DNA of 64,000 bases from Candidatus Thorarchaeota archaeon (GTDB taxonomy: Archaea; Asgardarchaeota; Thorarchaeia; Thorarchaeales; Thorarchaeaceae): NCBI GenBank assembly GCA_004524445.1, contig SDNP01000006.1, forward strand, positions 1 through 64,000, given 5' to 3'. This document shows positions 21,636 to 30,729 of the stretch, in pieces. Position 1 is the first letter of the stretch. Every line of letters starts with the position of its first letter. The notes below the pieces were generated by a model. That model worked only from the letters and a program-made list of their open reading frames with translations, did not search any database and had not been told where the DNA came from. The translations under genes and the position numbers were made by a program.

Positions 21636-23591
21636 TTGAGTCCATCAACTGACAAAACAACCAAAGCATCATCAGGCGACATAAAACAAGGAACCATCGC
21701 CAAGTTCATGCGCAAGAGAACGCAGCTAGTGGGCTTTGAAACTGGTCTTAACAAACATACTCAGTATGCCATTGAATTCCTCGATAATGCAATTGATGCC
21801 TTGGAGAGTTGGTGGTGGCGGACTAAACGGAAGCCCAGAATTCCCGACCAATTAGATCCGGAGCTTGTTGAAGAGATAAAGGAGAATTTAGTTGGGAAGA
21901 TTTCAGATACCATCAGCGAAAGCAAGGAGTTGGAGAAAAAAGTTCGCGCTGGGAAGGAGGTTGAGATTCCTCCTCGGCAGGATGAATCGTTAGATGACAA
22001 AGTCGACCGCTTCAAGAAATTCATAAAACCATTTAGAAAACTCATCCGAAAACGCGAGCCTCTGGTCGTAATGCAACTCAAAGAGATTCAGATGCCAGAC
22101 CTTGTGCCAATCGATGACGAAGATGGCTTCAAAGTCTATGAATTCACGGTTTTTGATTCTGGTATTGGAATGGTGCCATCAGACTTGGAGAAATTCGGAA
22201 TCTATCTTGCATCAAGCAAGTCCGAGAAATTGAGACAGACTAGAGGTAGTCAAGGATTTGGAGCACCATCTGCATTCAGTGATGCTCAGAATACTACAGG
22301 CAAGCCCATATTCACGATAACGAAGCGATATACAGCAGACAAGGCCACCGCAGCAGATTTCTACACAACTACTGCAAATACAAAGGACTATGTCGCTGGG
22401 CCAAAGCAAATGAAACTACCTTTCAAACAAGGCACCTACATTCGGCTACACTATCTTAACATCCAGTATAGGCGAGGCTATGCAGACATTTATGCAGAGA
22501 TGGCATCTTTACTGAATGCACATGTAACCATTGTATTCATTGATCCTTACGGTGAGGTCCATATCTATCCCCGTAGAGTAAAGCAATTCCCTGATGAACC
22601 AAAATATGCGCAACCTCATCCGGCAAGTATAAGAATTGGCGAATTCCAGGATTTGCTCAGAGAAACTGACCAGACATATGTCAAGGGGTTTCTAACGAAA
22701 GCTTTCGTGAGACTGAGCGGTAACAAGGCAGAGTCCATTATCAAGGCAACAAATGAAGAGCTTAAGAGTCGTGGATTACCCAAGATTGGTGGTCGCACAA
22801 AAACTAACAAACTGACAAAAGACCACGTTGAGCTTTTGTATCGTGCATTTTCTGCTGAAGATTATTACGCACCTCCCACTGATACAGTCGTTCCTGTTGG
22901 AGAAGAGGTTTTTGAGCAGACCATACAAATGGCATATGAGCCCGATTTCACTGCGTCGGTCACTCGAAAGCCTACCTCCGGCAAGGGTCTATCATTCGCC
23001 GTTGAGGTGTGTATTGCATATGGTGGCGAAATAAAACCGGCGACATCTGCCCCCATGGTACTTTGGAGATTTGTAAATCGAGTTCCAAAATTGCGTGACA
23101 ACAGCGATTGTGCCACTTGGAAGGCAACAGCCATGGTCAACTGGAAGAACTACAAGCTTGATACATTTGACAATGGCATTCCAAAGGGGTCTGTTATGGT
23201 GTTTATCCATGTCTGCGGAGCTTATGTCCATGTTATGTTCAAAGGTCAGAGTAAGCAAGCACTGGCCGAAGATGAAGTCCTGCTGAAAGAAATTAAACTT
23301 GCACTGGAAGAAGCAGGCCGGAAGTTCAGGCGATTCATAACAAAGAAAGAACGCGCAAGGAGAAAGGCGAAGCGGGCCGGCATACTTGCGATGTATGCGG
23401 ACCAATTTGCAGAGAGTCTAACAACAATCGCAAATGGCGGACTTGGCAAGAAAAAGTATGACGCTGAGCAGGTCGCAAGTAAGATTCGTGATGCGATCAC
23501 AGGTTTCGAAACAGAAGACGACCAAAAAGAAACAGAAACAGATACTGAGGGTAGTGACCTCGTTGCTGATGTTCCGTTAGATGATGAATAG
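21636..23591 (+). CDS. top6B: DNA topoisomerase VI subunit B, with a large insertion in the ATPase domain
   Basis: 651 residues, versus roughly 530 for typical archaeal subunits. It is the GHKL ATPase half of the type IIB topoisomerase that passes one duplex through another. The N-box is EFLDNAIDA (47-55), the G1 box VFDSGIGM (172-179) and the ATP-lid glycines GSQGFGAPSAF (204-214). The N-box and G1 box are normally about 35-40 residues apart. Here about 118 separate them, giving an extra charged helical segment of roughly 80 residues (about 60-145). The transducer domain and an acidic C-terminal tail follow. The start is a TTG preceded by GGAGTGACC. Subunit A follows after 29 bases. Confidence 0.93.
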   Translation: MSPSTDKTTKASSGDIKQGTIAKFMRKRTQLVGFETGLNKHTQYAIEFLDNAIDALESWWWRTKRKPRIPDQLDPELVEEIKENLVGKISDTISESKELEKKVRAGKEVEIPPRQDESLDDKVDRFKKFIKPFRKLIRKREPLVVMQLKEIQMPDLVPIDDEDGFKVYEFTVFDSGIGMVPSDLEKFGIYLASSKSEKLRQTRGSQGFGAPSAFSDAQNTTGKPIFTITKRYTADKATAADFYTTTANTKDYVAGPKQMKLPFKQGTYIRLHYLNIQYRRGYADIYAEMASLLNAHVTIVFIDPYGEVHIYPRRVKQFPDEPKYAQPHPASIRIGEFQDLLRETDQTYVKGFLTKAFVRLSGNKAESIIKATNEELKSRGLPKIGGRTKTNKLTKDHVELLYRAFSAEDYYAPPTDTVVPVGEEVFEQTIQMAYEPDFTASVTRKPTSGKGLSFAVEVCIAYGGEIKPATSAPMVLWRFVNRVPKLRDNSDCATWKATAMVNWKNYKLDTFDNGIPKGSVMVFIHVCGAYVHVMFKGQSKQALAEDEVLLKEIKLALEEAGRKFRRFITKKERARRKAKRAGILAMYADQFAESLTTIANGGLGKKKYDAEQVASKIRDAITGFETEDDQKETETDTEGSDLVADVPLDDE

Positions 23592-23620
23592 ATGCATGAT
23601 GTTTCGGGGAAGTGTAGATC

Positions 23621-25951
23621 TTGGCTAGAAAGAAATCAACCAAGACGAAGAGTGTGCAGACAACGCTGGGCGAGCATGAAGAGCCCGCGAAAGACAAAGA
23701 CATCAAGAAGAAGGAAGATGCCGGCAAAAAAACAACTCGGAGAAGGAAGAAGATGCCCCACAAGAAGAAATCGACACAAAATAAGAAGAGCAAGAAGGTC
23801 AAAGATGCAGGCCTTTCACAACTTAAAGAGATACCCGGAGTGGGCCCAACGCTTGCATCAAGATTAGCTGAATCCGGATATTCATCCATAGAGACAATCT
23901 CCAAGACCAAACCAACAACTCTTGCAAAGAAGGTTGAAGGACTTGGGAAAAAGGGGGCCTCTGATCTTGTGGATAAGGCGAAGACAATCTCCAGGAAAAT
24001 GAGCAAACCCAAAGAACTCGGTTTCAAGAATCTGCCTGGCGTTGGAGAAACACTGGAAACTAGGCTATATGTTGCTGGATATGATTCAATCGAAAAGATC
24101 TCTCAAGCCTCCGCAGCTAAATTAGCGAGAGAGATTGAAGGGCTAGGTAAGAAGGGCGCCTCAGAATTACTATCTGAAGCCAAGAAATATGTAACGCAGC
24201 AACAGGCGAAGAAGAAGAAGAAGAAGAAGAAACTGCCGAAGGACCTGAATCTGCGAAAGCTTTCGGGAGTTGGAAAGAAACTTGAGAGTCGGCTTTTTGA
24301 AGCTGGATATGATTCAATCGAGAAGGTCGCCAAAGCATCGCCTTCAAAATTATCCTCTGAAGTAGAAGGGCTAGGTGAGAAAGGCGCCCAGGATTTGGTG
24401 GCTGATGCCAAGAAGAAAGCTCCCACCAAACCCAAAGCACCCACGAAACAGAAGAAGAAAGATATTCCAAGTGTGAAGCTCACTAGTATTCCAGGTATTG
24501 GCTCCAAAACCGCCGCCAGTCTGAAAAATGCAGGTTATGATTCACTGCAACAAATTGCTGACTCAGATCCTAAAGATATAGCAAAAGAAGTTGATGGGGT
24601 CGGAAAGAAAGGGGCCAAAAAATTAGTAGAAGTTGTAGCAGATATAATTCCTGAGCTCGAAAGCATAGCAGAACCAATTGCTACTAAAGCCAGACCTGCA
24701 AAGCGTCGTAAGTCTGGACGTAGGGCTATGAAACGATTCAAGGTAAAGCGTACAAAATCAGGTCTGCCAGTTCCTAAGAAGGTTAAACAAGTAACCAAGG
24801 AAATGAGGGCACACTGGAAAGAGATAGACAAGCGAGAAGAGGAGGGAGAACTCATTGATGAAGATTTGCCAGATACAATGGAAGTTGTTGCTCTTACGGG
24901 TGATGAAACCAAAGAAGAACTGGCCAATGTGGCAATTGAGGTTCTCAATGAAGCGCTGACAACAGGAAGACCTGCATTTGAAATTCCAAGCAGGTCCAGT
25001 GATAATATAGTATGGGACGAATTTAGAGACCTTCTTTTACTGGGCACCAAGACCATCTCCAGACCATATCATTCACTAGGCTCCGTTGTTGATGCGACGA
25101 GGACAGCACGACTGATGGAAATAGTCTACCGTCTTCTTGATGAAAATCTTCACGCAACAAAACGAGAGGTATTCTATAGTGATGTGAATCTCTTCAGAGA
25201 TCAACGATATAGTGACAAGCTCATTGAAGATGTGGCTTCTATGCTTCATACCACTCGGGATAGTATTCATGTAGTTGCATCTGCGAGAGGGTCTGCTTTG
25301 GGTCGTGTTACTATACGCGACGGAGGCGACTTGATAGACCTAACCAGAATGGGGACGGGGGGATGGTCAATCACACCATTTCTGGACCAAGTTGAAATAG
25401 TTGAAAGCGACGCAGAATTCATAATCGTATCAGAAAAAGACGCTGCTGTAATGCGTCTTGCAGAGGCGAAATACTGGAACCGACAACCATGTATTGTCAT
25501 AACTGGAAAGGGTTCCGGTGACATTGCGACCCGTGCGTTCCTGAAGATGCTGGTGAGAGAACTTGAAATCCCCGCATTTGCACTCATGGATTCGGATCCG
25601 TATGGACACTATATTTACTCAGTTTTCTTAAGAGGCTCTAAGCGTCTTAGCTATGAGTCTCCATTCATCGCCACTCCGGAGCTTAAGCTACTTGGTGTAT
25701 TGAGCAGAGACCTTGACCGTTTTGAAATTCCGAAGAGCGTTCGAATCCCAATGGAAGATTCTGACATTAAGAGGGTCAAAGAAATGCTGAAGGAACCCTT
25801 TGTCCAGAAGAACAAGGAATGGGTCAAGGACTTGGAGCTAATGTTAAAAATCAAGGAGAAAGCAGAGATTCAAGCCTTCGCCAGCCATTCGTTCAAGTAC
25901 CTTACGGACGAGTATCTGCCCACAAAGCTAGAAACTGGTGATTGGATCTAA
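23621..25951 (+). CDS. top6A: DNA topoisomerase VI subunit A fused to four helix-hairpin-helix repeats
   Basis: 776 residues, about twice the usual 360-390. Residues 1-64 are Lys-rich. Four similar repeats of about 56 residues follow (65-123, 135-190, 210-265, 286-341). Each has a P/S-G-V/I-G hairpin, a GY-S/D-S-I/L segment and a G-hydrophobic-G-x-K-G-A turn, separated by Lys-rich linkers. The Spo11/Top6A core begins near 420. Its catalytic Tyr is Y519 in REVFYSDVNLF, and the Toprim acids are E605 (SEKDAAV) and D657/D659 (DSDPYG). The repeats resemble the N-terminal domain of the RadA in this window and should bind DNA without sequence specificity. The likely start is a TTG. Operon with subunit B. 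Confidence 0.95.
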   Translation: MARKKSTKTKSVQTTLGEHEEPAKDKDIKKKEDAGKKTTRRRKKMPHKKKSTQNKKSKKVKDAGLSQLKEIPGVGPTLASRLAESGYSSIETISKTKPTTLAKKVEGLGKKGASDLVDKAKTISRKMSKPKELGFKNLPGVGETLETRLYVAGYDSIEKISQASAAKLAREIEGLGKKGASELLSEAKKYVTQQQAKKKKKKKKLPKDLNLRKLSGVGKKLESRLFEAGYDSIEKVAKASPSKLSSEVEGLGEKGAQDLVADAKKKAPTKPKAPTKQKKKDIPSVKLTSIPGIGSKTAASLKNAGYDSLQQIADSDPKDIAKEVDGVGKKGAKKLVEVVADIIPELESIAEPIATKARPAKRRKSGRRAMKRFKVKRTKSGLPVPKKVKQVTKEMRAHWKEIDKREEEGELIDEDLPDTMEVVALTGDETKEELANVAIEVLNEALTTGRPAFEIPSRSSDNIVWDEFRDLLLLGTKTISRPYHSLGSVVDATRTARLMEIVYRLLDENLHATKREVFYSDVNLFRDQRYSDKLIEDVASMLHTTRDSIHVVASARGSALGRVTIRDGGDLIDLTRMGTGGWSITPFLDQVEIVESDAEFIIVSEKDAAVMRLAEAKYWNRQPCIVITGKGSGDIATRAFLKMLVRELEIPAFALMDSDPYGHYIYSVFLRGSKRLSYESPFIATPELKLLGVLSRDLDRFEIPKSVRIPMEDSDIKRVKEMLKEPFVQKNKEWVKDLELMLKIKEKAEIQAFASHSFKYLTDEYLPTKLETGDWI

Positions 25952-26098
25952 CTGCTGAAAAAATCCGGCAGAATGCAGTCCACCTATAAAGGCAACATCC
26001 AAATTCGGTTACTGCGGTTTTCAATTACCATACTGCAACATCCTTAAGTAGTCCAGCACATCTACACTATAGTGAATTTCTAATGAGTGTAGGGTGTC

Positions 26099-27052
26099 AT
26101 GCCCACAAGCTGGTGGAACAAAATGATTGAGTCATGCGTTGGCATCCCCGTGATTGATGCACATGCCCATTTTATGACAAGAAGCACTGTTCAATCGATA
26201 GTTGAGAATTCACAATCAATCAGTAAGATTCGCGAAAGAGTGTCATCTCATACTGACATGAAGGAGTTTCAAATGCCTGGCAAAGACTGGGATATTGGTG
26301 AGGCATGGATCAAAGAGCTCAACAAATATGGGATAACTGCGATTGGGATGATGGTGGGGGAGGAGTCATGGGAAGAATTCAATCAGGTTCGTAAGAGGTA
26401 TCCCGGCAGATTTATGGGAAATGCAAATATCAATCCTGCTAAGGATAATGCTATTGAGCTTGTGAAACGTGCCGGCCGAGATAACTTCCAAGCGATAAAG
26501 CTCTATCCAACGTCATGGGACTTCCATGCATATGATGAAATTGTATACCCCATTTACGAAGAAGCCCTAAAACAAGGTCTTCTTGTTATGCTTCACTTCG
26601 GTATCACAATTGGATCAACAGCAAATCTCAGATATGGAAATCCGCTTGATATACAGAAACCTGCTCATGATTTTCCAGATCTCAATTTTATGATTGCTCA
26701 CTTTGGTGCAGGATTCTTCCGAGAGGTTCTGCTGCTAATGTATCAAACAGAAAACGTGTTCATGGATACTAGCGGTAGTAACTCTTGGATGAAGTATCTT
26801 CCATACGATTTGTCACTTACGAAAATATTTGAGAAGGCACTGAAAGCTGGAGGACCGAATCGTATTGTATTTGGAACGGACTCGTCTTTCTTTCCAAGAG
26901 GTTTTAGAATAAACATTCTTGAAGATCAATACGCTGCTGTTAGTTCTATTTGTCCTCAATTCTGTTATTCGCCGGATGATGTGGACAAAATTTTCAGAAC
27001 CAATATCTTAAGACTCAACAAATTTGAACCAGCTTCTGAGATATCAAAATAA
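26099..27052 (+). CDS. Amidohydrolase-2 family metal-dependent hydrolase
   Basis: 317 residues forming a TIM-barrel hydrolase. The metal-binding motif DAHAH is near residue 21, and further ligands are probably the His in VMLHFGI, the His in MIAHFGAGF and the Asp in FGTDSSF. AIKLYPTSW is typical of this family, which includes decarboxylases and lactone or amide hydrolases. The precise reaction is unknown. Single gene with its own leader; convergent with the next gene. Confidence 0.85.
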   Translation: MPTSWWNKMIESCVGIPVIDAHAHFMTRSTVQSIVENSQSISKIRERVSSHTDMKEFQMPGKDWDIGEAWIKELNKYGITAIGMMVGEESWEEFNQVRKRYPGRFMGNANINPAKDNAIELVKRAGRDNFQAIKLYPTSWDFHAYDEIVYPIYEEALKQGLLVMLHFGITIGSTANLRYGNPLDIQKPAHDFPDLNFMIAHFGAGFFREVLLLMYQTENVFMDTSGSNSWMKYLPYDLSLTKIFEKALKAGGPNRIVFGTDSSFFPRGFRINILEDQYAAVSSICPQFCYSPDDVDKIFRTNILRLNKFEPASEISK

Positions 27053-27071
27053 AAGCAAAAGGAGTCTCAAG

Positions 27072-28280
27072 TCAGGCTTTCCTGATTTTCTTTTCGAGAC
27101 CTCGGAGTTTCTTGCTATTCCCACCTTCCTTGTACTTCTCAGCAGCCTCTTGATATGTAGCTAATGCCTCTCGAGTTCTGTCTTGCTTGGCCAACTCATC
27201 TGCTTTATCCTCCAAATCCTCTCCCCAATCAACATAACATTCACGAGCTTTCTCAGCTGACTTCGCACGCATCTTCTTGTCTGTCGTCAACATGTAGATT
27301 TCTCTAGCTTTCTTATATTGTACTATCGCCCATTCATACTGCCCTGCTTTCTTATGGTCTTCTGCTTGGTCGAAATGAAATTCGGCCATCTTTTCATATG
27401 CTTCATCGATTTTCTTGATGGACTCTTTGATCATCTTTTCATTGGATGCTTGTTCAGCGAGCTTCTTCGCTTTTTCAAACTGCTCGATTGCGAATTCATG
27501 TTCATTTTCATCCACTTTCTGCTCGCCAAATTCAGTACGTGCTTTTGCCATCGCTTCGTAGACATAGAATGGATAGTCGAAATCATCGTCAGATAAAGCA
27601 AAGCCGCAGTTTGGACATGAGGGGGTGTCGAGTTCCTTCATCTCGTCAGGGGCCTTGATCTCTTCTGGCTTGCCCACTACTCGTTCAACAAAGTCTGGAC
27701 TTGTTTCGCCTCGGCCTTTGGGAAAGAGGTGCTCAACAGCCTTTTCTTTTTCTATGGATCTGATCGGCTTGGCCGGCTTGATTTCGGGAGGTGTTACCTC
27801 TTTGAAAGGCATTCCCTCCTTGACATCATCCGCCTCTATCTCTGGAATTTCCCAAGACATACCTGACTCGGGTTCAGTCTGGCCGCTCTGCGCCACATCC
27901 GCTTCTTGAGCATTTCTACTGGGTCTATCAGTTTGTTCTTCCTCATCGGACATACCCTCTCTATGCCCTTCTGTTTCTTTCTTCCATACCAAGTCATCAG
28001 GAGGCAATTCTTCTTCGATATCCTCTTCCTGCAAGGGCTCTAGTGCTGATTTTTCAAGATTTGGCATATCGGCATCATTTTCGTCTTCTTCTGAAGTAAT
28101 GTCAATGCGTGTAAAGCCCTTTTCCTCTGCCTTCTGCTTTGCATGAGCAAGTTCTCTTTTCATGATATCCTCAGGAGTTTCATTGTTGGGTGCAGTTAGT
28201 CTAGCTCCACAATTCATACAAAATGTGGATCCTTTTCCAACTCTTTTTCCGCACTCGGGACACTCAGTTGTTTTGTCCAT
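27072..28280 (-). CDS. Zinc-ribbon protein with a long acidic linker and TPR-like helical repeats
   Basis: 402 residues. An N-terminal zinc ribbon (CPECG...FCMNCGARL) is followed by about 180 acidic, Pro-containing residues that look disordered. A second half-ribbon follows (CPNCGFALSDDD). The C-terminal 160 residues are helical repeats of the form AIEQFEKAKKLAEQA, WAIVQYKKAREIY and ALATYQEAAEKYK, that is TPR-like. This architecture suggests a soluble adaptor or scaffold. No enzyme motif. The gene behind it on the same strand is a PAP2-like membrane protein. Confidence 0.7.
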   Translation of the reverse strand: MDKTTECPECGKRVGKGSTFCMNCGARLTAPNNETPEDIMKRELAHAKQKAEEKGFTRIDITSEEDENDADMPNLEKSALEPLQEEDIEEELPPDDLVWKKETEGHREGMSDEEEQTDRPSRNAQEADVAQSGQTEPESGMSWEIPEIEADDVKEGMPFKEVTPPEIKPAKPIRSIEKEKAVEHLFPKGRGETSPDFVERVVGKPEEIKAPDEMKELDTPSCPNCGFALSDDDFDYPFYVYEAMAKARTEFGEQKVDENEHEFAIEQFEKAKKLAEQASNEKMIKESIKKIDEAYEKMAEFHFDQAEDHKKAGQYEWAIVQYKKAREIYMLTTDKKMRAKSAEKARECYVDWGEDLEDKADELAKQDRTREALATYQEAAEKYKEGGNSKKLRGLEKKIRKA

Positions 28281-28405
28281 GTTGAGAACATCTCTTTCAT
28301 TTGAACGGCAGGGGGTAACCCGACTCAGCTTATCACAGTCCTAATCTCTGAGCTTTGCTATATGAACAAAGCTCGTATCATCTATTTCTAGAGAATTTAG
28401 ACCAC

Positions 28406-29047
28406 TCAATATACCACCATTGGAAGAAAGTAATAAGTAAGGATGGTGATTGCGGTTGCCAAAAGAACTCCGCTGATGGACTCTCTTAGCGTATGTTGTC
28501 TCAAAATAGTCCGTGACCAGATAACCAAAATCCACACAACTAGAACGGGGGAGGCTAAGAGACCGTATTCGATAATAAGTGCAGTTCCAGGGCCTCCAAC
28601 TCCAGCACCATGAACTGATACTTTGGAAATCCGATTGACCAGCATTACCCCCACTGTTACCGTAATATATGCTGCAGAGAGATATTGCATGATGTCTGCA
28701 TTCAGAACAGAATAGATCGAGAATGCAATCAAATAGAAGAATATGGCAAATGCAAAGAACTTAGTCCTAACTTCCTGTTGAGAAACATCTAGGTCTACAT
28801 TGCCCCTGTATGCCTCGATGATGATTGGCATCACGGGAAGAATAACCATGAATATCAGGCAAACTAGGATTGATGCGGAGGAAGTCAATACCGGCCCAAG
28901 TCTATTTGAAGAAGCAATTGACATAATGGTACCAACAACCAGATTGATGATAGGGGCAGGAGTGACTCGCGAGATGGCACGTGCCAGAGTCACTCTTCTT
29001 CCCGATATATCAAGTGATTCGTCACCATATTTCACTAGAAACCACAT
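28406..29047 (-). CDS. PAP2-like integral membrane phosphatase family protein
   Basis: 213 residues with about six transmembrane helices. The sequence KVSVHGAGVGGPGTAL followed about 40 residues later by SRTILRQHTLRESISGVLLA resembles the second and third parts of the PAP2 lipid-phosphatase signature (the S-x-H region and S-R-x5-H). The first part of the signature is not clear. If active, it would hydrolyse a lipid phosphate or pyrophosphate at the membrane. Divergent from the Roadblock gene. Confidence 0.55.
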   Translation of the reverse strand: MWFLVKYGDESLDISGRRVTLARAISRVTPAPIINLVVGTIMSIASSNRLGPVLTSSASILVCLIFMVILPVMPIIIEAYRGNVDLDVSQQEVRTKFFAFAIFFYLIAFSIYSVLNADIMQYLSAAYITVTVGVMLVNRISKVSVHGAGVGGPGTALIIEYGLLASPVLVVWILVIWSRTILRQHTLRESISGVLLATAITILTYYFLPMVVY

Positions 29048-29208
29048 TCCTTTTCGATGCCAATATGGCAGTAGGGGTTTAATCTATCTCTTTTTTCAGC
29101 ATATCTGGGCGGGGTAATCATCGCCAAAAGGCTTTTGTTGAGTCCAAGCTTTTCATAGTAACACGGAGCTCAGAGAAACTCCTATGGATGTGCTACCACA
29201 TGCCTGCA

Positions 29209-29508
29209 ATGCCCAAACGTGAAGTCTTTGAACGGATTATTCAGAATATAACGAACAAATTTCCAGATATCTATGCAGCACTATTCATCAGCCCTGAGGG
29301 ATTTCCCATAAATACATGGGGAGTGTCTCTGGAGCGAGCAGAAGAGATTTCTGCTCTATTGAGTTCATTGATTGGAAAAACGAAGGAAATAATCCGTCAG
29401 GTGAAAGAGGGTGGCGAGCTTCAGTTCATTCAGATACAAACCAACGTCGGCGGAATTAGGATTGCTCCCCAAGAGGAATTCATTCTTGTCACGTTAACAA
29501 AGTCATAG
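29209..29508 (+). CDS. Roadblock/LC7-domain protein
   Basis: 99 residues, a single Roadblock/LC7 domain. It has an opening helix (EVFERIIQNITNKFPDIYAALFIS), a beta-hairpin with EGFPIN, a long central helix RAEEISALLSSLIGKTKEIIRQ, and a final strand ending EEFILVTLT. These small dimeric platforms bind Ras-like GTPases (MglB and Ragulator types), and Asgard genomes carry many copies. Two Ras-like GTPases lie 5-7 kb away. The start at ATG 29209 begins the domain; earlier in-frame ATGs exist. Upstream of radA, separated by a 195-base gap. Confidence 0.8.
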   Translation: MPKREVFERIIQNITNKFPDIYAALFISPEGFPINTWGVSLERAEEISALLSSLIGKTKEIIRQVKEGGELQFIQIQTNVGGIRIAPQEEFILVTLTKS

Positions 29509-29614
29509 TATCAGACTCTCTTCATGTAACTGGATAGAGAATGCAGAGCATGCTTTTCCTTGGCGAAATAGGTAATGCATATCAATTTCTAACTCGGAGT
29601 GCCCGTTAGTGCCA

Positions 29615-29622
29615 TTTTTATA
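29615..29622 (+). promoter_or_regulatory. TATA-like box of radA
   Basis: TTTTTATA preceded by GCCA, about 85 bases upstream of the radA ATG. A GGAGGT lies 7 bases before that ATG. Confidence 0.45.
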
Positions 29623-29703
29623 CCCAGTGTTACGACTACAATAAGACGGGATGCTTGGGTATACATTACTGATATCCGCGAGCACTCGAGGGAGGTCAAT
29701 TAG

Positions 29704-30729
29704 ATGTCACCAAAAAAAGATGAGAACGACGAGGAAGATGTCGATTACGAGGAATTTGAGGAAGAAGATGAGGAAATAGATGATGAATTACCTGATTACG
29801 AGCTCACAGATCTTCCCGGTGTTGGTCCTGCAATAGGAAAACGATTGGTAGAGGCTGGATTCAAGAGTGTGGAGGCGATTGCAGTTGCTTCACCCGGTGA
29901 ACTAGCAGCTGCTGGCTCAATAGGCGAAACTACTGCAACGAAGATTATCAAGGCCGCCCGTGAGATGCTTGACATCGGGTTTGAAACAGCAGACTTGTTA
30001 CTCGAGCGCAGACAGACTGCAGGGAGAATTACAACTGGCTGTAAAGCTCTGGATGATCTTTTTGGCGGTGGTATTGAAACACAAGCGATTACTGAAATGT
30101 ATGGTTCATTCCGGTCCGGAAAAACACAAATGGCTCATCAACTAGCGGTAAATATTCAGTTGCCTCCGGGGGAGGGCGGTCTCTCAGCAACGGCGATTTA
30201 TGTAGACACAGAAGGAACTTTCAGACCTGAGAGGCTTGTTGACATGGCAGAGCATCTAGGTCTTGATACGGAGGCAGTTTTGAAGAATGTGGTTTGGGCA
30301 CGAGCCTACAATTCCGACCATCAAATCCTTTTATGTGATCAAGCAATGGAGATGGCTCCTGAAACGAACGCAAAACTTTTGGTTGTAGACTCTGTGACCA
30401 GTCATTTTCGGGCAGAGTACACGGGAAGAGGAACCTTAGCTGCAAGGCAGCAAAAACTCAACAAACATCTACATCATCTCCAGCGCGGTGCAGAGGTAAA
30501 TAATATGGCAGTGTACATTACTAATCAGGTAATGGCCCGACCAGATGCATTTTTCGGTGATCCAACTACCCCTGTCGGCGGCCACGTTCTAGCTCATGTT
30601 CCCCAAACTCGATGCTATCTACGAAAATCAAAAGGGGAACGAAGAATATGTCGTCTTGTGGATTCTCCACATCTACCAGAGGGTGAAGCAGTATTCACCA
30701 TTACTAAGGAAGGAATCCAGGACGTATAA
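29704..30729 (+). CDS. radA: DNA repair and recombination recombinase RadA
   Basis: 341 residues, archaeal Rad51/RadA. An unusually acidic N-terminal tail (1-32) is followed by a helix-hairpin-helix domain (about 34-92, [20 protein letters not shown]). The RecA core has Walker A GSFRSGKT (134-141) and a Walker B-type strand in [29 protein letters not shown] and the C-terminal PVGGHVLAH follow. It forms filaments on single-stranded DNA and exchanges strands. A strong GGAGGT with 7-base spacing marks the ATG. Its hairpin-helix domain resembles the four repeats in topoisomerase VI A in this window. Confidence 0.97.

Follow-up and report, generated by a model that had tools for sequence, protein, structure and literature searches.

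The A subunit (Top6A) of DNA topoisomerase VI (topo VI) in the Thorarchaea carries, throughout the class, an N-terminal extension built around an array of helix-hairpin-helix (HhH) domains, and this extension is probably a cis-acting DNA-tethering arm, with DNA binding that we infer, on a family of slow and distributive enzymes. The gene from the source genome lies in the window (the whole stretch of 64,000 nucleotides that was analysed), where the following features were located:

21636 to 23591, forward strand: Top6B (GHKL ATPase and transducer), the partner subunit, 651 aa (Topo-VIb_trans, E 1.4e-42; PRK04184, E 1.8e-102)
23621 to 25951, forward strand: Top6A (A subunit of DNA topoisomerase VI) carrying the N-terminal HhH array; 776 aa, TTG start codon
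23654 to 23680, forward strand: short motif VQTTLGEHE, residues 12-20, conserved in Thorarchaeal N-termini
23681 to 23800, forward strand: lysine-rich segment, predicted to be disordered, about residues 21-60 (pLDDT 27-38)
23819 to 23974, forward strand: HhH domain 1, residues 67-118 (Pfam, profile, AlphaFold2)
24026 to 24172, forward strand: HhH domain 2, residues 136-184 (Pfam, profile, AlphaFold2)
24251 to 24403, forward strand: HhH domain 3, residues 211-261 (Pfam, profile, AlphaFold2)
24476 to 24631, forward strand: HhH domain 4, residues 286-337 (Pfam, profile, AlphaFold2)
24752 to 24820, forward strand: Thorarchaea-specific linker with the motif SGLPVP...VxxLxxEMKxxW (alignment and consensus), absent from outgroup Top6As
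24881 to 25948, forward strand: conserved Top6A core (invariant columns and alignment to solved topo VI A subunits)
25175 to 25177, forward strand: Tyr519, in the winged helix of the core
25433 to 25435, forward strand: Toprim Glu605 of the core
25589 to 25591, forward strand: Toprim Asp657 of the core
25595 to 25597, forward strand: Toprim Asp659 of the core
29704 to 30729, forward strand: RadA recombinase with a single HhH domain of its own, a conserved neighbour of the top6B/top6A pair in Thorarchaea

The fused protein belongs to a Thorarchaeon, which supports an Asgard origin, and is the A subunit of the organism's canonical type IIB topoisomerase (topo VI). The open reading frame contains both parts of the Top6A core, the TP6A_N winged helix with its tyrosine (Pfam, E 1.1e-19) and the Spo11/Top6A Toprim domain with its glutamate and DxD (TOP6A-Spo11_Toprim, E 5.7e-55), and the catalytic part retrieves topo VI A in a Foldseek search (E 9e-20). 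Tyr519, Glu605, Asp657 and Asp659 do not vary in an alignment of 32 Asgard Top6As and match the motifs of the M. mazei and S. shibatae Top6A in an alignment to the solved structures. The position of the frame, its identity as Top6A and the four catalytic residues, all of which had been put forward in a preliminary description based on the sequence alone, are confirmed by these results. The gene starts 30 bases past the end of the gene for Top6B, and the same adjacency of top6B and top6A is seen in Thorarchaeal genomes.

Relative to ordinary Top6A, residues 1-420 (~420 aa) are an N-terminal addition. Pfam HHH_5 matches this extension in four stretches (E 2.1e-44, above the curated cut-off), and the boundaries of the units were set with a profile built from the four HhH units and iterated over orthologs (domain E 1e-20 to 1e-23). 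In the AlphaFold2 model each unit has five helices (pLDDT ~90-95) and two Gly-x-Gly hairpins, giving eight hairpins over the four domains, while the linkers between units are of low confidence and the packing of the array on the core is not predicted (pTM 0.35). The units superpose on the RadA N-domain at 0.8-0.9 A over 53-55 residues with 35-36% identity (Foldseek), with further matches to the NusA C-terminal repeats and, among the top hits, to topoisomerase V bound to DNA; RuvA is matched weakly by both profile and Foldseek. The array modelled without the core gave an unchanged Foldseek list with weaker E-values. Across the Thorarchaeal HhH domains the GxG is kept in 95/98 first hairpins and 95/98 second hairpins. 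The preliminary description had proposed four RadA-like HhH repeats and suggested a profile search of the N-terminal 400 residues and a structure prediction, and these searches and models, together with the ortholog-iterated profile, bear the proposal out; the P-G-V-G and G-x-K-G-A motifs that it had picked out are present, refined here to the first and second hairpin of one two-hairpin domain.

Top6A was surveyed in 47 genomes of the Thorarchaeal class and 228 genomes of the Asgard phylum. All 39 Thorarchaeal genomes in which the N-terminus is assembled, representing all 13 genera, carry the array, and HhH domains were found in none of the 10 non-Thorarchaeal Asgard Top6As examined. Among the matches listed, the open frames of the non-Thorarchaeal Asgard proteins span about 357-476 aa, and the length survey that had been proposed thus finds the long form confined to the Thorarchaea among the copies listed, in agreement with the earlier statement that ordinary Top6A has no such array. 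The fusion is therefore a feature of the whole class and not peculiar to the source genome, a point that the preliminary description had missed, as it had the N-terminal motif and the distribution of type IIA topoisomerases considered below. An apparent short form in one genome (G035; a 451-aa open reading frame with an assembled upstream region) was traced to a scaffold gap of N. The fused Top6A was not found in viral contigs, and plasmid matches cover the core alone and do not include the array. It had also been asked whether the fusion is standard and already described: it is standard across the Thorarchaeia, and no description of the fusion was found in the open-access literature searched, which covered Top6A and topo VI in connection with HhH domains, N-terminal extensions, paralogs, Asgard archaea and Thorarchaeota.

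The identity of the Top6A core is 73-88% within the Thorarchaeal class and 55-69% to most other Asgard families, and only 26-31% between the fused protein and the second Top6A-like protein of its host. Given these identities and the core tree, in which the Thorarchaeal sequences form one clade (support 100/99), the fused protein is, by sequence comparison, an ortholog and not a paralog of the ordinary Asgard Top6A. This orthology rules out a paralog dedicated to a different function, and the two other Top6A-like proteins of the host lack HhH domains. Support for the deep branches in the core tree is weak, and, within the Asgard genomes surveyed, the simplest reading of the single Thorarchaeal clade is that the array was gained once, in the ancestor of the class.

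Additional type IIB-like genes were encountered during the survey. A second Top6A/Top6B-like pair (L069; 8296-9444 and 9350-10867, both on the reverse strand, contig C34 of genome G000; 382 and 505 aa) has an A subunit that retains an intact DxD, lacks HhH domains and shares ~28% identity with the canonical A subunit; the pair is present in most Thorarchaeal genomes. A third pair (L070; 3311-4459 and 4459-5994, both on the reverse strand, contig C52 of G000) has an A subunit that keeps the catalytic tyrosine motif and in which D-x-S (DMSPWS/DLSPWS) replaces the DxD of the Toprim domain. The D-x-S is invariant in orthologs from eight more Thorarchaeal genomes (L144-L151; 68-74% identity), and the pair would represent a conserved type IIB-like enzyme whose metal site is altered. 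In a separate Asgard lineage, family f27, Top6A bears a different accessory domain on the same subunit, a ubiquitin-like domain at the N-terminus (L081, 4365-5750, reverse strand, G224; L082, 3462-4874, forward strand, G222) with Pfam matches to Rad60-SLD (4e-7) and ubiquitin (3e-6), both above cut-off.

The number of HhH units per Top6A varies from two in most genera to four in the source genome and genus g8, five in genus g11 and seven in genus g12. Units in the expanded arrays are nearest their own neighbours by identity and in the tree: r1 and r2 of g8 are 92-96% identical to each other, r2-r4 of g11 are 79-87% identical among themselves and r1-r3 of the source protein are 54-56% identical among themselves. 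This proximity indicates that the expanded arrays arose through independent, lineage-specific tandem duplications, while r1 and r2 of the two-unit proteins tend to cluster with r1 and r2 of other genera. A copy of the array from the neighbouring radA is unsupported, as most array units have a nearer relative than the RadA unit in a 52-column alignment of low resolution. For eight close Thorarchaeal pairs, where computable, dN/dS is 0.04-0.16 for the HhH domains, 0.09-0.49 for the linkers and 0.01-0.04 for the core, and the HhH domains are, on this measure, under purifying selection. Since orthologs from 39 genomes share the array and its dN/dS is well below 1, the array is neither a chance resemblance nor an artefact of assembly or a mis-joined frame. 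The production of a repeat-less isoform from an internal start was also considered and appears unlikely from the sequence, as internal Met codons in the linkers of the 14 genes inspected lack a consistent ribosome-binding site.

Upstream of the array, a motif with the class consensus [VI]-Q-x-[T/S]-L-[GDE]-[ED]-[LVI]-[VI] is conserved. Its Q-x-[T/S]-L occurs at about residues 11-19 in 36/36 complete N-termini (35 genomes), with no further occurrence in 12,229 residues of the extensions, and it is invariant while the flanking residues drift. For a stricter pattern, Q-x-T-L-G-[DE]-L-V, 12 of the 13 matches in the 47 Thorarchaeal genomes fall in Top6A. The archaeal PIP consensus is QSTLDSFF (consensus peptide KTTQSTLDSFFK; PMC4929162), and PIP-like sites occur in the host FEN1 tail (QSSLADFL) and PolB (QSSLEDFM), both of which keep a phenylalanine. 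The Thorarchaeal motif has the Gln and hydrophobic residue of a PIP box at positions 1 and 4 and lacks the aromatic pair at positions 7-8, which is [LVI][VI] in most proteins and His-Glu in the source protein (QTTLGEHE), ruling out a bona fide PIP motif. It is a putative docking motif, for which PCNA is the leading guess as partner.

A search for PF00521 (the GyrA/ParC/Top2 core) returned no match in 46/47 Thorarchaeal genomes, with the controls detected. Given this lack of a type IIA topoisomerase, topo VI is the type II enzyme of Thorarchaeal cells. The lone type IIA subunit (L127, contig C269 of genome G028) comes from a genome with 7% estimated contamination and may represent contamination or a recent transfer. 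Other gyrase-less Asgards may manage with a plain Top6A, the type IIA survey having covered the Thorarchaeal class.

The extension of the source protein is strongly basic, with a net charge of +50 over 420 aa compared with -11 for the core, and the charge resides mostly outside the HhH domains (+45 over 216 linker and tail residues; +5 over 204 HhH residues). The extension is likewise strongly basic in almost all genera, mostly through the linkers, with the exception of g12, in which the seven-domain arrays are net acidic (-18 over 356 aa) and several hairpin tips retain lysines (GVGKKGAKQ). HhH domains mostly bind the duplex backbone non-specifically. The DNA clamping, processivity and crossing or junction recognition proposed for the array in the preliminary description are plausible.

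Purified topo VI from M. mazei acts distributively and favours crossings, and its rate falls ~50-fold short of what the cell requires (PMC5922973); processivity of topo VI is limited and occurs on braids only (PMC8837201). It has been postulated that a factor for processivity or localisation is missing (PMC5922973, PMC8837201). In the proposed mechanism, the class ancestor would have added to Top6A a flexible N-terminal arm composed of the docking-like Q-x-T-L motif, the lysine-rich disordered tail, the RadA-type HhH array and the SGLPVP linker leading into the core. The hairpins and lysines would grip duplex DNA non-specifically, and the A2B2 enzyme would bear two such arms, which would concentrate DNA locally, help the enzyme to stay bound from one strand passage to the next and perhaps retain a second duplex near the gate. 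A slow, distributive topo VI would in this manner become able to act as the sole type II topoisomerase of the cell. Counted in favour of a tethering arm are the domain content, the RadA-like fold, the Foldseek match to DNA-bound topoisomerase V, the retention of GxG and the basic extension, along with the dN/dS values, the array in 39/39 genomes of a single Thorarchaeal clade and in none of the outgroup orthologs, the lack of type IIA enzymes in 46/47 and the slowness of topo VI. Counted against it are the weakly basic array of the source protein (+5/204 aa), the acidic arrays of g12 (-18/356 aa), the likeness to the NusA acidic repeats, a model that does not place the array with respect to the DNA gate (pTM 0.35) and the chance that other gyrase-less Asgards get by with plain Top6A.

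The main rival is that the array serves for protein docking and brings topo VI to complexes of chromatin, transcription or repair, with DNA binding secondary. The acidic-repeat domains of NusA have the same fold as the HhH units and bind protein, and their presence among the fold and profile matches, the acidity of the g12 arrays and the HhH domains on other proteins of the same genome, where a DNA-binding role is not obvious, all lend themselves to this explanation. These other proteins include a ribosomal protein L32e with four N-terminal HhH domains (L071, 3713-5062, forward strand, contig C24 of G000; HHH_5, 1.9e-46; Ribosomal_L32e, 3.6e-35) and, at L072, L073 and L074 (contigs C1, C63 and C48 of G000), HEAT-repeat-like proteins with one HhH domain each and an MFS-like membrane transporter with one at its C-terminus (HHH_5, 1.5e-11), and HhH units look unusually mobile in the Thorarchaeal lineage. 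However, a basic charge is found in most arrays and almost every tail, the GxG hairpins are kept almost universally and the RadA N-domain is the closest solved fold, and a docking platform is considered unlikely.

Comparably unlikely is that Q-x-T-L, as a degenerate PIP motif, anchors topo VI to the PCNA clamp and creates a decatenase coupled to the replisome, with the HhH/Lys arm serving as a tether. The invariance of the motif in drifting surroundings, its likeness to the first half of QSTLDSFF and to the host FEN1 and PolB sites, and the co-purification of P. abyssi topo VI subunits with NucS, PCNA and RFC (PMC4929162) speak for such docking, but Leu/Val or, in the source protein, His-Glu replace the aromatic pair that the host sites retain in part as phenylalanine. 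A wider version, in which Q-x-T-L would bind PCNA or a different replication factor and the HhH/Lys arm would keep hold of the sister duplexes, yielding a processive sole type II enzyme, is doubtful to a slightly greater degree.

It is distinctly improbable that the array reads DNA crossings or four-way junctions, in the manner of RuvA or RadA, and couples topo VI to recombination. The gene order from 21636 to 30729 (top6B-top6A-(amidohydrolase)-zinc-ribbon/TPR-membrane protein-Roadblock-radA), kept across most Thorarchaea, and the weak RuvA matches are consistent with junction reading, as is the crossing preference that topo VI already has through Top6B (PMC5922973). Gene order alone is a weak argument, though, and a copy number of 2-7 is unlike a shape-specific reader, as is the non-specific backbone binding usual for HhH domains. 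Near-neutral accretion of domains without a marked effect on topo VI, in a lineage that has spread HhH units onto several other proteins and in which linkers evolve fast and array length drifts, is very improbable given the purifying selection on the HhH domains, an array never lost in 39 genomes and the invariant N-terminal motif.

The tethering arm can be set beside several known systems. Archaeal Top6A (M. mazei 2q2e/9o8p, S. shibatae 2zbk) has the catalytic core, the Tyr/Toprim residues and the gene pair with Top6B in common with the Thorarchaeal form, which adds the Q-x-T-L motif, the Lys-rich tail, 2-7 HhH domains and the SGLPVP linker. Topoisomerase V of Methanopyrus kandleri (type IC; 8df7, 4gfj) likewise has a tandem HhH array with sequence and fold matches, but the match is confined to the HhH part, the type IC catalytic domain is lacking from the fused protein, and the catalytic cores are unrelated, the arrays having been acquired independently. 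Topoisomerase V is a type I enzyme that works without Top6B or ATP. The preliminary description overstated the case in naming it as the only topoisomerase well known for stacked HhH domains, as an archaeal DNA topoisomerase I (NCBIfam PRK14973), a type IA enzyme unlike the Thorarchaeal topo VI, also has HhH repeats (model positions 672-801 match residues 134-268). RadA/Rad51 shares the HHH_5-type fold (0.8-0.9 A, ~54 aa, 35-36%) and bears one such domain on a recombinase; for most array units, the host copy is not the closest relative.

Plant RHL1 and BIN4 are separate eukaryotic polypeptides that are not known to carry HhH arrays. Both are reported to bind plant topo VI, possibly as obligate partners (discussed in PMC5922973), whereas the Thorarchaeal addition is in cis. 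The Ig-like domain at the C-terminus of Top6B in gyrase-encoding archaea is a lineage-specific accessory domain on topo VI (PMC9348778), located on subunit B and tied to the presence of gyrase, while in the Thorarchaea subunit A is extended and type IIA enzymes are lacking. The individual parts have precedents; what appears to be new is how they are combined, the conservation of this arrangement across the class, its variable length and the N-terminal motif. The evolution of accessory domains on topo VI extends beyond the Top6B C-terminus, and the natural variants with two, four, five and seven domains, along with relatives with none, provide a series for testing tethering against processivity and decatenation preference. 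The Thorarchaea appear to have built the postulated processivity factor of topo VI in cis, with no type IIA enzyme as a fallback.
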